The notes under the pieces were generated by a model that was not told the origin of the DNA, made no database searches, and was given only the letters and a program-made list of their open reading frames with translations. A DNA stretch of 47,819 nt from Roseburia sp. GTDB taxonomy: Bacteria > Bacillota > Clostridia > Oscillospirales > Ruminococcaceae. Every line of letters starts with the position of its first letter. The stretch's first letter is position 1. A program made the translations under genes and the position numbers. Positions 6,091 through 19,427 of the stretch are shown one piece after another. The stretch is taken from NCBI GenBank assembly GCA_023666265.1, contig JAMPCH010000017.1, positions 1 through 47,819 on the forward strand. The letters run 5' to 3'.

Positions 6091-7447
6091 AACAGAGCTC
6101 AAAAAGAACGAGATCGTTACGGTCACCGTAACGGCGCTCACAAACGAGGGCTGTGGGATCGGAAGATGGGAAGGAATGGTGATCTTTATCCCGTTTTCCG
6201 CCGTGGGCGACCTTCTTCGCGTTCGGATCGTTAAGGTTGGGCGGACGCATTGTTACGGAAAAATCGAAGAAATATTGACCCCCTCTTCGGATCGCGTTCC
6301 CGTCGATTGTCCCGTGTTCGGGCGGTGCGGCGGCTGCGATTTTCGTCATCTTCGCTATGAGGCGGAGCTTTCGGCGAAGGAGGGCTTTCTACGTGACGCG
6401 TTTACGAGGATCGGCAGACTTGATCCCGAATTTCTCCCGATCCTTCCGAACGCTTCCGTTTCCGCTTATCGGAATAAGACCCAGTATCCCGTTCGTAAAG
6501 GGATAAACGGGACGGAGTGCGGTTTTTTCGCCGAACGAAGTCATCGGATCGTTCCATGCGGCGCGTGCCGCCTCGAACCGTCCCGCTTTGAGGAGCTTCG
6601 CGGCTTTATCCTCGATCTCGCGCGGGAAAATCGGATCTCCGCTTATGACGAGGAAACGCACAGCGGCGTTCTTCGTTCGATCTGTATTCGTCGCGGGTAT
6701 CATTCGGGGGAAGTCGGCGTTTCGGTCGTCGTTCGCCGCTTTGTTCCCGAGTTGAAAAAGCTCGGCGAGGCGGTCCATGCGCGTTTTCCCGAGGTGGTGA
6801 GCGTGACCGCGAACGTTAATCCCGAGCGGACGAATGTGATCCTCGGCGAGGACGAGCGGCTTCTTTACGGGACGCCGTATATTACGGATACGATGTGCGG
6901 GAAGACGTTTCGGATCTCCGCCCGCTCGTTTTATCAGGTCAATACGCCGATGGCGGAGGCGCTTTATCGGGAGGCGGCGAAGCTGATTGAGCCGGACGGA
7001 AAGACGGTCGTCGATCTGTACTGCGGCGCGGGAACGATCGGGCTTACGGTGGCGGATCGCGCGAAGCGGGTGATCGGCGTAGAACAAAACGAGAGCGCGG
7101 TCGAGAACGCGCGGGAGAACGCGCGCCTAAACGGCGCGGAAAACGTTCGCTTCCTTTGCGGCGACGCGGGGGAGGCGACCGAGCGGCTGACGGCGGAGGG
7201 AGTACGCGCGGACGCGGTCATCGTTGACCCCGCGCGGAAGGGCTGTGACCCGAGGACGATCGAAAATATCGTAAAGCTCGATCCCGCGCGGATCGCGATG
7301 ATCTCCTGTAACCCCGCGACCGCCGCGCGGGACTGTAAGCTGTTGAGCGAGCGCGGGTATCGTGTGGAAACGGTTCGGGGCGTGGATCTTTTCAGTCGAA
7401 CGAGGCATGTTGAGACGGTAGTATTGATGTCAAGGGCAAAGGACTGA
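6080..7447 (+). CDS. rlmCD: 23S rRNA m5U methyltransferase, RlmCD/TrmA family
   Basis: This 455-residue SAM enzyme of the RumA/RlmCD family methylates C5 of uridines in 23S rRNA. An N-terminal TRAM domain (about residues 8-68) is followed by a [4Fe-4S] cluster motif with Cys77, Cys83, Cys86 and a further Cys near 159-162. The SAM motif is V-D-L-Y-C-G-A-G-T-I-G-L and the catalytic nucleophile lies in I-S-C-N-P. Start ATG 6080 overlaps the prfB stop, implying translational coupling; TTG 6071 is an alternative. The protein ends soon after the conserved H-V-E-T-V-V-L block, without the longer C-terminal tail seen in some clostridial relatives. An accessory cassette follows. Confidence 0.92.
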   Translation: MRNKTELKKNEIVTVTVTALTNEGCGIGRWEGMVIFIPFSAVGDLLRVRIVKVGRTHCYGKIEEILTPSSDRVPVDCPVFGRCGGCDFRHLRYEAELSAKEGFLRDAFTRIGRLDPEFLPILPNASVSAYRNKTQYPVRKGINGTECGFFAERSHRIVPCGACRLEPSRFEELRGFILDLARENRISAYDEETHSGVLRSICIRRGYHSGEVGVSVVVRRFVPELKKLGEAVHARFPEVVSVTANVNPERTNVILGEDERLLYGTPYITDTMCGKTFRISARSFYQVNTPMAEALYREAAKLIEPDGKTVVDLYCGAGTIGLTVADRAKRVIGVEQNESAVENARENARLNGAENVRFLCGDAGEATERLTAEGVRADAVIVDPARKGCDPRTIENIVKLDPARIAMISCNPATAARDCKLLSERGYRVETVRGVDLFSRTRHVETVVLMSRAKD

Positions 7448-16366: not shown

Positions 16367-17368
16367 TCATTTTTCATAATCCCCCCGAAGCTGACCGCAG
16401 GCGGCGTTTACGCCCGCGCCCATTTCACGGCGCATGGTAACGCCGATCTTATTCTTTTTCAGAATATCGTAAAAGCGAAAGATCTGATCGTCGTCGCTCC
16501 GCTCAAATTCGTCTCCCTCGCTCGGGTTATAGCGAATGATGTTGACATAACACTTACTTTCCCCGATCAGGTCGGCGAGCGCTTTGGCTTGATCGACGCC
16601 GTCGTTTATGTTTTTGAGCATGACATATTCGAGCGTGACGCGACGGTTCGTGTCCTTTGAAAAACGCTTTATCGCGGGGATCAGTACCTCCAGTGGGTAA
16701 GTACGGTTGATCGGCATCAGGCGGGAGCGAAGGGCGTTATCCGGCGCGTGGAGACTGACGGCGAGGTTTACGTTGTAATTCGTTTTGGACAGCGCCTCGA
16801 TCCTTGGGACGACCCCACAGGTCGAGACCGTGATATGACGCGAACCGATACAAAGCCCATTTTGATAAAGGGCGGTATCGATCATACCCAGTACGTTTTC
16901 GTAATTGTCAAAGGGTTCGCCGATCCCCATGACCGCGAGCCCGGTGATCGGCTCGCCGATGCTTTCGCCGACCGCGAGGATCTGTCCGAGCATCTCTCCC
17001 ACGCTTAGATTTCGTATTTTTTTCATGCGCCCGCTTCGACAGAAGGCACAGCCCATATTACAGCCGACTTGGGTAGAGATACAGATATTATTTCCGTATT
17101 CGTGGCGCATAAGGACGGATTCGATGAAATGACCGTCGGAAAGGCGAAACAGGTATTTGACCGCGTTTTCTCCGTCCGATACGGCGGCACACTCGAGCCG
17201 CTCGATCGTGAAACGCTCCTCTAAAAGCGAACGAAGCGCGGGCTTTAGCGGAATTTCCGAGAGGGAAGGGACGCGATCGCGATAAAGTGCGCGAAAGACC
17301 GTTTCCGCCGCCGTCTTTTTTTGAAGGACTTCGATCAGGCGGGCGAGGGGTAGATCGTAAATATTCAT
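16367..17368 (-). CDS. rlmN: 23S rRNA/tRNA adenine C2-methyltransferase RlmN
   Basis: RlmN is a radical SAM enzyme that methylates A2503 of 23S rRNA and A37 of some tRNAs. The 333-residue product has Cys103, Cys107 and Cys110 as C-N-M-G-C-A-F-C, a following G-E-P-F-D-N-Y block, and the C-terminal methyl-carrying Cys324 in A-A-C-G-Q-L-R-G. The start at 17368 is fixed by an ATGA overlap with the upstream yihY stop and a GGAAA Shine-Dalgarno; a longer in-frame start at 17407 is unlikely. Cfr resistance enzymes are related, but nothing here points to Cfr rather than RlmN. Confidence 0.94.
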   Translation of the reverse strand: MNIYDLPLARLIEVLQKKTAAETVFRALYRDRVPSLSEIPLKPALRSLLEERFTIERLECAAVSDGENAVKYLFRLSDGHFIESVLMRHEYGNNICISTQVGCNMGCAFCRSGRMKKIRNLSVGEMLGQILAVGESIGEPITGLAVMGIGEPFDNYENVLGMIDTALYQNGLCIGSRHITVSTCGVVPRIEALSKTNYNVNLAVSLHAPDNALRSRLMPINRTYPLEVLIPAIKRFSKDTNRRVTLEYVMLKNINDGVDQAKALADLIGESKCYVNIIRYNPSEGDEFERSDDDQIFRFYDILKKNKIGVTMRREMGAGVNAACGQLRGDYEK

Positions 17369-18246
17369 GACGTTTCCTTTTTTATCGGCTGTTTTTGGGG
17401 GATCCATTTCCCGATCTTTTTAAAAAATCCGCTCGAAAGCATGAGGTTCAGCTCCTCGCCGAGGAAGAGAATATACATACAGATATAAAGCCATAGGATC
17501 AAGAGGGCGACCGTCGTAAGACTTCCGTAAACGTAGGAATAATTCGCGAGACGGTTCACATAAAACGAGTAGAGCGCCGAGAAGCCGAGCCAGCCCGCCG
17601 CGCTGAATACCGCGCCGGGAAGCTTTGAAAAAGGGCGGGATTTTTGGATCGGGAGCGCGGCGTATATAAAGAGGAAAAAGAGGATCAATACCCCAAAGCC
17701 GATCGCCCAGCGAAAGGTAAAGAGCGCCCCGTCGAAGGATTCGAAGATCGGAAAGGCGCGGATCAGTCGCTCCAAGATCGCCTGCCCAAAAACAAGAAGC
17801 ACCAAAACGGCGAGCATCGCGAGGATAAAGAGGATCATATAAAAAACGGCGCTGATCCTGAGGCGGAGAAAGCCGCGCGTTTCCTTTACGCGGTGAATAC
17901 GGTTCAGCCCGTTAATGATCCCGATCAGCCCGCGCGAAGCCGACCACAGCGCGACGACCGTCGTGACCGATAAGATTGCGCCGTTTGCTTTTTCCCGTGC
18001 CTCGGCGATGATCCGGGTGATAAAGCCCCCGACCTCGTCGGACAGGATCTCGAGTTCGTAGGTACTCGTTTCGGAGAAGATTGGGAAATTTTTCATAATA
18101 TTTAAAAGGATCATAATAAACGGGACGAACGATAGGATCATAAAAAGCGCCGAGTAGGCGGCGTATTCGTTTAGGTTATCCCGCCGAAAACGCTCCGTTA
18201 CGCATTTAACAACGGTATAAAGCTTTAAGATGAGTATTTTATTCAA
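17365..18246 (-). CDS. YihY/BrkB-family membrane protein
   Basis: The 293-residue integral membrane protein belongs to the YihY/virulence factor BrkB family, once mislabelled RNase BN. It has about six hydrophobic segments, beginning with one at residues 28-50 after the A-A-Y-S-A-L-F segment, and the conserved L-W-S-A-S-R-G and Y-S-Y-V-Y-G-S-L blocks. Its molecular role is unsettled. The start is TTG 18246 with an AAAGGAGCG Shine-Dalgarno. Its stop overlaps the rlmN start by ATGA, so the two are co-translated. Confidence 0.9.
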   Translation of the reverse strand: MNKILILKLYTVVKCVTERFRRDNLNEYAAYSALFMILSFVPFIMILLNIMKNFPIFSETSTYELEILSDEVGGFITRIIAEAREKANGAILSVTTVVALWSASRGLIGIINGLNRIHRVKETRGFLRLRISAVFYMILFILAMLAVLVLLVFGQAILERLIRAFPIFESFDGALFTFRWAIGFGVLILFFLFIYAALPIQKSRPFSKLPGAVFSAAGWLGFSALYSFYVNRLANYSYVYGSLTTVALLILWLYICMYILFLGEELNLMLSSGFFKKIGKWIPQKQPIKKETS

Positions 18247-18288
18247 TCGTTTCGCTCCTTTAAAATTTTTTTATTATTTTTGTCACTT

Positions 18289-18316
18289 TTTCCGATTTTC
18301 AAACGTTCTTTATAGT
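18289..18316 (+). promoter_or_regulatory. Putative promoter of the 18321 small RNA
   Basis: The -10 is TATAGT (18311-18316), about five bases before a GGGG run that opens the structured region. The -35 is weak (TTTCCG at 18289-18294, 16-base spacer). A TTGTCA at 18280 is too far away to pair with this -10. Confidence 0.5.
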
Positions 18317-18320
18317 AGAA

Positions 18321-18480
18321 GGGGAAAATCCTCTCGTAACTGCTTCAATACGACGATCCCCTTTTAGCCCCGCGACGGGGCGAACCCTATGGGAAACCGA
18401 CCGGTCGGCGACTCATACGGGAATGTCCGCTTTTACGGAGATCGACTCTTCGGGAAAGCGGACATATTTTTACTTTTTAT
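18321..18480 (+). ncRNA. Candidate structured small RNA with own terminator
   Basis: Both flanking genes are on the minus strand, yet the gap holds a chain of + strand hairpins ending in a strong terminator. Domain 1 pairs GGGGA (18321-18325) with TCCCC (18357-18361) and inside it TCGT with ACGA. Hairpin 2 is GCCCCG (18367-18372) with CGGGGC (18376-18381). Domain 3 pairs CCCTATG (18385-18391) with CATACGGG (18414-18421, one bulge) around CCGAC/GTCGG (18397-18408). The last stem is 11 bp (18423-18433 with 18455-18465) followed by ATTTTTACTTTTT. I could not match it to 6S, SRP, tmRNA or any riboswitch I know. Confidence 0.65.
18423..18478 (+). terminator. Intrinsic terminator of the small RNA
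   Basis: A perfect 11-base-pair stem (18423-18433 / 18455-18465), with a GAG/CTC pairing in the loop, is followed by a T-rich tract on the + strand only. On the minus strand no T run follows, so it does not belong to the exonuclease gene. Confidence 0.85.
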
Positions 18481-18485
18481 AGGCT

Positions 18486-19427
18486 CTATTTTCTCTCGAG
18501 ATGAGCGGTTCTACGCCTAAACTGTCGATAGCGCTCATTTTTTGCGCGGTGTCGTATTCTCGCGGTATAGATCTTTTCGAGCGAGGGCGTCATCGGATAA
18601 AGCCCGCCTTTAAGGTGATCGTCGCTTTTTTCAAAGTGCGCGAAAAAGTCGCCGTCGTCGGGACACCGTAGCTTCGTCACAAAGCCGTTTTTTTGAAAGC
18701 GGTAAAACTTTCCCGCTCCTAAGCCCTTCCCACAGATCGGGCAGTCGGTAAAAAACGTCCCGCAATATGCCGCCATACCGTCGACGCTCCCGAAATAGTC
18801 GGTCTCGTCGGTGAGGAGCGCTTCCTCGGTGAGCCACGAGAGATCGGGTCTTTTGGGGGAGGCGCTTTTTCGGCGGTATCGGCGGATCCCGCCGGAAAGA
18901 TCCAGCCGACGCGCGATGAGGAGGGTAATATACGCGTCGTTCAGTGCGTCATGAACGCGAACGCTCGTGTTAATGGAGAAATACTCCGCCGCAGTCTTTA
19001 AACCGATCTGGAGAACGGACTGTCGTGTTTCGGTACAAAAAATACGTTGTAGGTTATAATGTGGGGGAAGCTCGGTCTCGACCCGATGAAACGCCATATT
19101 TTCCGTCAAGATCGGGAGGTCGTCGTCTCCCCATGCTAATAGAACGGTCTCATCCTCAAAATATCGCGTCATTTTCGAGAAGCCCTCGGGGAAGGGGAGA
19201 CCTCTTTCCGCGCGTTCCTGCGTGATCCCCGTAAGCTCGCTCACATACTCGTTCATGGTCGGATAGACGACGGGTCTAACGGTGACTTTATCCCGATACA
19301 GGATCTCGAGCCTCTCGCTGAGGACAAAAAATCCGATCTGGATAATTTCGCCGTGACGGAGCGCGGAGCTTTTTTCCTCCGGGGTAGAGGGCTGATTCCA
19401 CTCCATATCAAAAATAATGTAATTCAT
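18486..19427 (-). CDS. DEDDh 3'-5' exonuclease with C-terminal zinc ribbon
   Basis: The 313-residue protein starts with an exonuclease domain: D-M-E-W-N (Asp7 and Glu9), and an H-D-A-L-N-D-A block near 157-163 that supplies the ExoIII His and Asp. Related proteins act on RNA or DNA 3' ends; some are annotated as KapD-like. After residue 230 there is a Cys-based ribbon (C-P-I-C-G, then L-R-C-P) and a basic tail, which suggests nucleic-acid binding. The ATG shares its A with the TAA of gltA (TAATG), so the two are translationally coupled. The metabolic reason for pairing with citrate synthase is not obvious. Confidence 0.85.
   Translation of the reverse strand: MNYIIFDMEWNQPSTPEEKSSALRHGEIIQIGFFVLSERLEILYRDKVTVRPVVYPTMNEYVSELTGITQERAERGLPFPEGFSKMTRYFEDETVLLAWGDDDLPILTENMAFHRVETELPPHYNLQRIFCTETRQSVLQIGLKTAAEYFSINTSVRVHDALNDAYITLLIARRLDLSGGIRRYRRKSASPKRPDLSWLTEEALLTDETDYFGSVDGMAAYCGTFFTDCPICGKGLGAGKFYRFQKNGFVTKLRCPDDGDFFAHFEKSDDHLKGGLYPMTPSLEKIYTARIRHRAKNERYRQFRRRTAHLERK

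Follow-up and report, generated by a model that had tools for sequence, protein, structure and literature searches.

Small RNAs under ECF sigma control are best known from envelope stress in Gram-negative bacteria. In E. coli, MicA, RybB and MicL make up the repressive RNA arm of the RpoE response (PMC8103513), and in Fusobacterium nucleatum two ECF-driven small RNAs, FoxJ and FoxI, repress envelope mRNAs; FoxJ is about 156 nt long, and its likely seed is a conserved one for which a loop position is predicted (PMC11005410). The SigI regulons of cellulolytic clostridia offer a further likeness, with alternative sigma factors, extracytoplasmic sensors and control over secreted enzymes (PMC6056542). 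SroA of S. aureus was considered as an ECF-linked precedent and set aside; it is described as a small protein.

We analysed a locus on a 47,819-nt stretch of DNA (as a whole, the window) from a 2.8-Mb genome. Its plus strand carries, at 18315-18476, what appears to be a free-standing gene for a structured, non-coding RNA, with homologues in three other genomes from its genus (G021, G004 and G075), so that four homologues are compared below. The RNA resembles FoxJ and FoxI in being a probable ECF-linked small RNA outside the Proteobacteria, and FoxJ in its conserved putative seed, predicted to be loop-borne, although here the promoter is recognised by sequence, pairing is proposed where the targets of FoxJ and FoxI have been tested, the seeds differ (C-stretches there, ACUGCUUCAA here), and the likeness is one of description. 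With MicA and RybB it shares a layout of stand-alone RNA, ECF-type promoter and exposed conserved loop, and the mechanism that we propose, an RNA arm of an ECF envelope regulon, is that of MicA, RybB and MicL. Those RNAs, however, are Gram-negative and aimed largely at outer-membrane proteins, and the sequence comparison with them consists of the window's lack of an Rfam match. SigI promoters differ from the one found here, having an A-tract in the -35 element and a CGAA -10 element as against TGTCAC, a T-tract in two of the four homologues, and CGTT.

The first-pass annotation of this DNA, made without database searches, had been unable to place the RNA in a known family, and the covariance-model search bears it out. 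Rfam gave no match at the gathering threshold over the whole window, and at E values up to 10 the region 18200-18600 returned only HOXB13-AS1_1 (E 0.83), which is not credible; there was no match to 6S, SRP, tmRNA, RNase P, riboswitches or other Rfam families. Searches of an open-access library, which cover only part of the literature, gave no description of this small RNA. Judged by its sequence, it founds a new family within a known kind of small RNA, the ECF-dependent ones. An exact loop motif and a readable promoter are features of this conserved Firmicutes RNA, which would extend the logic of ECF-controlled small RNAs to uncultured ruminant-gut clostridia.

The RNA, its fold and its loop

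The elements of the transcript are as follows.

18315-18476, plus strand: predicted small RNA of about 160 nt, from promoter, fold, terminator and three homologues; both ends are predicted
18316-18366, plus strand: hairpin 1, the conserved domain, from the fold and compensatory changes in its basal stem
18329-18333, plus strand: UCCUC, anti-Shine-Dalgarno-like, in three of the four homologues (UCCUU in G075)
18339-18348, plus strand: ACUGCUUCAA, conserved decamer in the apical loop and proposed seed, identical in all four homologues
18367-18381 and 18385-18421, plus strand: two middle hairpins specific to this genome, from the fold
18423-18480, plus strand: intrinsic terminator, a hairpin (18423-18465) with a U-rich tail, from the fold

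The plus strand of 18289-18480 folds at -68.5 kcal/mol, compared with -50.2 ± 4.5 for 200 dinucleotide shuffles (z -4.1), none of which folded as well; for 18315-18476 the fold beats all 200 shuffles (z -5.6). The same holds for the full-length fold of each of the four homologues (200 of 200 shuffles, z -4.7 to -6.5), and hairpin 1 alone was matched or beaten by 4, 11, 4 and 0 of 500 shuffles. Three folded domains had been described for the RNA, and all three appear in the fold of the window, but only hairpin 1 is conserved. The window's two middle hairpins were not found as such in the other three homologues; the G004 RNA has a small hairpin ahead of its terminator, and the G075 RNA has an extra hairpin within the first domain. 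The terminator, also described before, is seen in the fold too: its hairpin is followed by ATATTTTTACTTTTTAT, and all four homologues end in a strong hairpin and a U tract, the sequences of which differ. A simple terminator scan did not list it, perhaps because an internal loop breaks its stem. Sequence signals expected of a discrete transcript, including a terminator of its own, can be read in each of the four homologues; the conserved elements are the promoter boxes, hairpin 1 and a terminator, the last in presence though not in sequence.

Covariation in the stems, named beforehand as a check on the RNA, was found in the basal stem of hairpin 1. Since MAFFT had put the 3' strand of this hairpin in the wrong place, the pairs were registered by hand; 31 of 32 are standard pairs over the four homologues. 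A shift of one column left pairs at no more than 20 of 28 and 17 of 29 positions, and among 24 reassignments of the 3' strands the true one alone reaches 31 pairs. Changes on both sides occur in columns 6 (GC/AU), 7 (AU/CG) and 8 (AU/UA, unpaired in the window). The covariation is thus in the right direction and limited in extent, being drawn from four sequences, three columns and a hand-made register.

In the alignment of the promoter and 5' part, all other runs of identical columns are shorter than the decamer ACUGCUUCAA. Its mean unpaired probability is 0.88-0.96 in the four RNAs, compared with 0.34-0.50 for the RNAs overall; in the window's RNA, where it is exactly the apical loop, the value is 0.90. 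The UCCUC upstream of it has a mean unpaired probability of 0.61 in the window, 0.42 in G021 and 0.22 in G004, and the UCCUU of G075 one of 0.98. We considered an anti-Shine-Dalgarno role for this motif, but the idea is weakened by the altered sequence in G075 and by its pairing in G004 and G021.

Proposed mode of action and the search for targets

The comparison of the four loci shows a conserved gene with conserved promoter boxes, a conserved hairpin and a loop that is predicted to be exposed, while base pairing as its mode of action and repression as the outcome are speculative. The reading that we favour, with moderate confidence, is that of a trans-acting, ECF-transcribed small RNA which is made together with a secreted-protein regulon and pairs with mRNAs through the loop decamer. 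An extracytoplasmic signal would free the sigma factor, and RNA polymerase carrying this ECF (group IV) factor would transcribe the small RNA alongside the secreted proteins and lipoproteins of the regulon, with the 3' hairpin terminating transcription. The 5' hairpin would present the decamer for base-pairing with target mRNAs, which would carry UUGAAGCAGU-like sites and the translation of which would probably be blocked.

The four genomes were searched for such targets. The pattern TTGAAGCAGTNNC occurs in 15 places, three of which are the RNA locus; the other 12 each fall within a frame of more than 90 codons, which may be on either strand, and the window's own genome contributes none of them. 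Before an ATG, TGAAGCAG is rarer in the own genome than its reversed control (6 versus 31) and commoner in G021 (100 versus 16), G004 (97 versus 14) and G075 (46 versus 13). This excess is more likely due to codon use, since none of the 30 loci checked, out of 249, was a clear gene start with a Shine-Dalgarno sequence. The seed followed by GG and ATG occurs 18 times in the own genome versus 70 for the control, with one real gene start by reading. An rpsC-like gene in this genome (L253), in which GAAGCAG and then GGAGG precede the ATG, is a weak lead that we do not claim, being close to chance by a rough estimate. In G075, at 37 nt past the ATG of a membrane protein gene that is permease-like by reading, there is a 13-nt perfect complement of that genome's own loop (L191, G075:C59:14246-14258, minus strand), which is also one of the 12 places above. 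As a target it is weak, occurring in G075 only; G004 has no TTGAAGCAGTATC outside the RNA. In all, the searches of the four genomes supported no mRNA target.

Because no pairing target is supported, a protein-binding role is a live rival. The RNA could be an ECF-driven structured RNA that binds a protein, as a sponge or a scaffold, through its conserved loop and without pairing with mRNA. The loop is exactly conserved on a stem of varying sequence, as would be expected of a protein site. On the other hand, no known protein site was recognised in the loop by reading, and pairing seeds, too, usually take the form of a short open loop. We regard protein binding as unlikely, and pairing through the decamer as the better account of the loop.

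The promoter and its probable ECF link

Upstream of the transcript the plus strand carries the following elements.

18281-18286, plus strand: -35 element TGTCAC, identical in all four homologues
18287-18291, plus strand: T-tract after the -35 element, in the window and G021, absent in G004 and G075
18304-18307, plus strand: -10 element CGTT, 17 nt after TGTCAC, identical and at the same spacing in all four homologues
18311-18316, plus strand: TATAGT, probably part of the start region that follows the ECF -10 element, not kept in G004 and G075

TGTCAC-N17-CGTT looks like an ECF-type promoter in each of the four homologues. A T-tract behind a -35 AAC is an ECF promoter feature (PMC6056542), and AAC and CGTT boxes are given for EcfG, one ECF group (PMC8103513). 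The first-pass annotation had instead read TATAGT as the -10 element and GGGG as the start, and both assignments are probably wrong. TATAGT is probably not a sigma-A -10 element, because the consensus scan listed no plus-strand sigma-70-type site there, hence no TTGACA-like -35 element 16-18 nt before it, and because the hexamer is not kept in G004 and G075. Judging by other ECF promoters, the transcript probably starts near 18314-18318 and not at GGGG, which gives an RNA of about 160 nt. A small RNA transcribed by sigma-A from TATAGT, with no link to an ECF regulon, would have in its favour that TATAGT matches five of the six positions of the consensus TATAAT. We consider it very improbable, since it is TGTCAC and CGTT that G004 and G075 keep, and since the element as a whole recurs, in variant form, before ECF sigma genes.

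A profile (R1) of the promoter and loop was built from the window and G021 and run at two levels, over 394 genomes from the order and over 71 from the genus, the own genome included. Most of the other R1 places that were read hold like elements upstream of genes. In relatives the genes that follow encode secreted proteins, lipoproteins, one MBOAT-like protein and one Sel1-like protein; in the own genome they are dockerin-like, Fic-like and lipoprotein genes, all named by sequence reading. At least one place (L094) appears to be a coincidental match within coding sequence. The variant TGTCAC-N16-TGTT in G009 and the variant TGTAAC-N17-CGGA in G789 each stand directly before a sigma gene with Sigma70 regions 2 and 4, and the exact TGTCAC-N17-CGTT precedes neither. 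The membrane-protein gene after each of these ECF sigma genes could, by sequence reading, encode an anti-sigma factor. The own genome yields 26 loci (L151-L176) matching the ECF-type sigma region 4 family, of which 20 pass the cut-off; L157, the closest of them to the G009 and G789 sigma genes alike, has TGTCCC-N17-CGTT about 150 nt before its start. From these elements we infer that an ECF factor reads the small-RNA promoter.

A matrix of 12 protein-gene promoters scores the RNA promoters of the window at 35.3, G021 at 39.3 and G004 at 19.6, and besides the RNA promoters one site among 368,566 background positions exceeds 19.6; the 12 sites came from the search seeded with two RNA promoters, so that the test is partly circular and the scores are supporting, not independent. 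At the G075 site the matrix gave no score above 8, though TGTCAC-N17-CGTT is present. The promoter would offer a handle on a set of secreted-protein genes in this group that looks like an ECF regulon not described before.

Some of the like elements occur in more than one copy. Upstream of a secreted dockerin-like protein in the own genome there are two near-identical tandem ECF-type promoters, 203 nt apart (L110, G000:C58:5971-6020 and 6174-6223, minus strand). In G033 (L103, G033:C4:5025 and 2437, minus strand) and in G002 (L101, L102), closely similar lipoprotein genes occur two per genome, each with its own copy of an ECF-type promoter.

Neighbourhood and distribution

The genes around the small RNA in the window are these.

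16367-17407, minus strand: rlmN-like radical SAM gene, from a Radical_SAM match
17365-18246, minus strand: BrkB-family membrane protein gene (PF03631, E 5e-53), divergent upstream neighbour
18486-19427, minus strand: RNase T-type exonuclease gene (PF00929, E 1.6e-10), convergent downstream neighbour

In all four genomes the small RNA lies on the strand opposite to both flanking genes, with a divergent gene upstream and a convergent gene downstream, and the rlmN-like gene lies behind it. The neighbours, the fold (0 of 200 shuffles) and the three homologues thus agree with the earlier description of a plus-strand structured RNA between two minus-strand genes. A free regulatory RNA of about 155-160 nt had also been proposed: the free RNA, of about 160 nt and at a conserved locus, is the best-supported reading, and that it regulates anything we infer.

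The BrkB gene adjoins the small RNA in three of the four loci (window, G004 and G075), and a minus-strand sigma-70-like site pointing towards BrkB (18302-18273, TTGAAA-18-AATAAT, 10/12) overlaps the ECF-type promoter of the RNA. Both would fit a locus whose main effect is in cis, on the divergent BrkB gene, for example through overlapping promoters. In G021, however, the RNA is kept at the locus beside a different gene, a small PqqD-like one (match below the Pfam cut-off) from which it diverges, with no BrkB in that genome at E <= 1e-20, and occlusion would not need a transcript with a conserved loop; we find a cis role highly unlikely. A leader or untranslated remnant of a lost plus-strand gene, or a small ORF, is barely credible: one frame of the G004 RNA is open from a 5' ATG to the 3' end, but in the window this frame lacks a start codon, and stop codons close it by codon 8 in G021 and by codon 6 in G075; none of the reading frames is shared by the four homologues, and the divergent upstream and convergent downstream genes in each genome leave no same-strand gene downstream, so that the RNA is neither a leader nor, as the first-pass annotation had rightly held, a cis-riboswitch.

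In its own genome the window's RNA has itself as the sole match at E <= 0.001. Whole-interval BLAST against 60 relatives gave G021 as the only real homologue (E 5.5e-8, 83% over query positions 8-60), the best match in any other genome having an E value of 0.0019; four of the weaker loci were read (L003, L012, L013 and L017) and all 30 fetched loci scanned for the loop, and no homologue beyond G021 appeared. Full-length R1 matches in the 71 genomes of the genus were those of the window, G021 and G004 (25 bits, E 3.6e-5 for G004). Among the R1 places read, 19 in relatives and seven in the own genome besides the window's, only that of G004 carried the RNA. The places read were a minority of those listed; a scan of 115 loci for the loop pattern found no exact match beyond the known RNAs. 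A second profile (R2), run over 396 genomes of the family, gave 28 places, of which 17 were read, and the decamer was in none but the window's.

The G075 homologue was found by reading upstream of BrkB genes. BrkB is present at E <= 1e-20 in 32 of the 71 genomes; 30 loci were read, three with the RNA and 27 without, one of the latter (L127) ending early at a contig end. The small RNA is therefore known in four of 71 genomes of the genus, and further carriers may have escaped detection. A tree built from 27 of the 32 BrkB proteins (L127, L134, L137 and two without loci were omitted) places the three encoded beside the small RNA in one clade (support 100/99). The homologues, the kept position and the BrkB clade together argue that the small RNA is a gene kept in a small lineage and not a chance fold.

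It is quite possible, though we would stop short of calling it probable, that in gut clostridia this RNA serves an ECF extracytoplasmic regulon as an RNA arm confined to one lineage. It would be co-induced with secreted dockerin-like proteins and lipoproteins, its loop-displayed decamer would tune these or other envelope mRNAs, and its origin would be separate from that of the sigma-E RNAs found in Proteobacteria and Fusobacteriota.

A contig pattern scan gave five matches. Two of them, in a Buchnera record and in 'bacterium YF1.bin83', were rejected, being without TGTCAC and the closing stem by eye. The other three were G004, G021 and G075, which in the named collection are MAGs labelled Ruminiclostridium sp., from roe-deer rectum or water-deer cecum. 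At the corresponding position in G003, again divergent from BrkB, there is an ECF-type promoter (L107/L145, G003:C28:12033-12077, plus strand), with the decamer absent downstream; this locus perhaps holds a small RNA that has diverged or been replaced.
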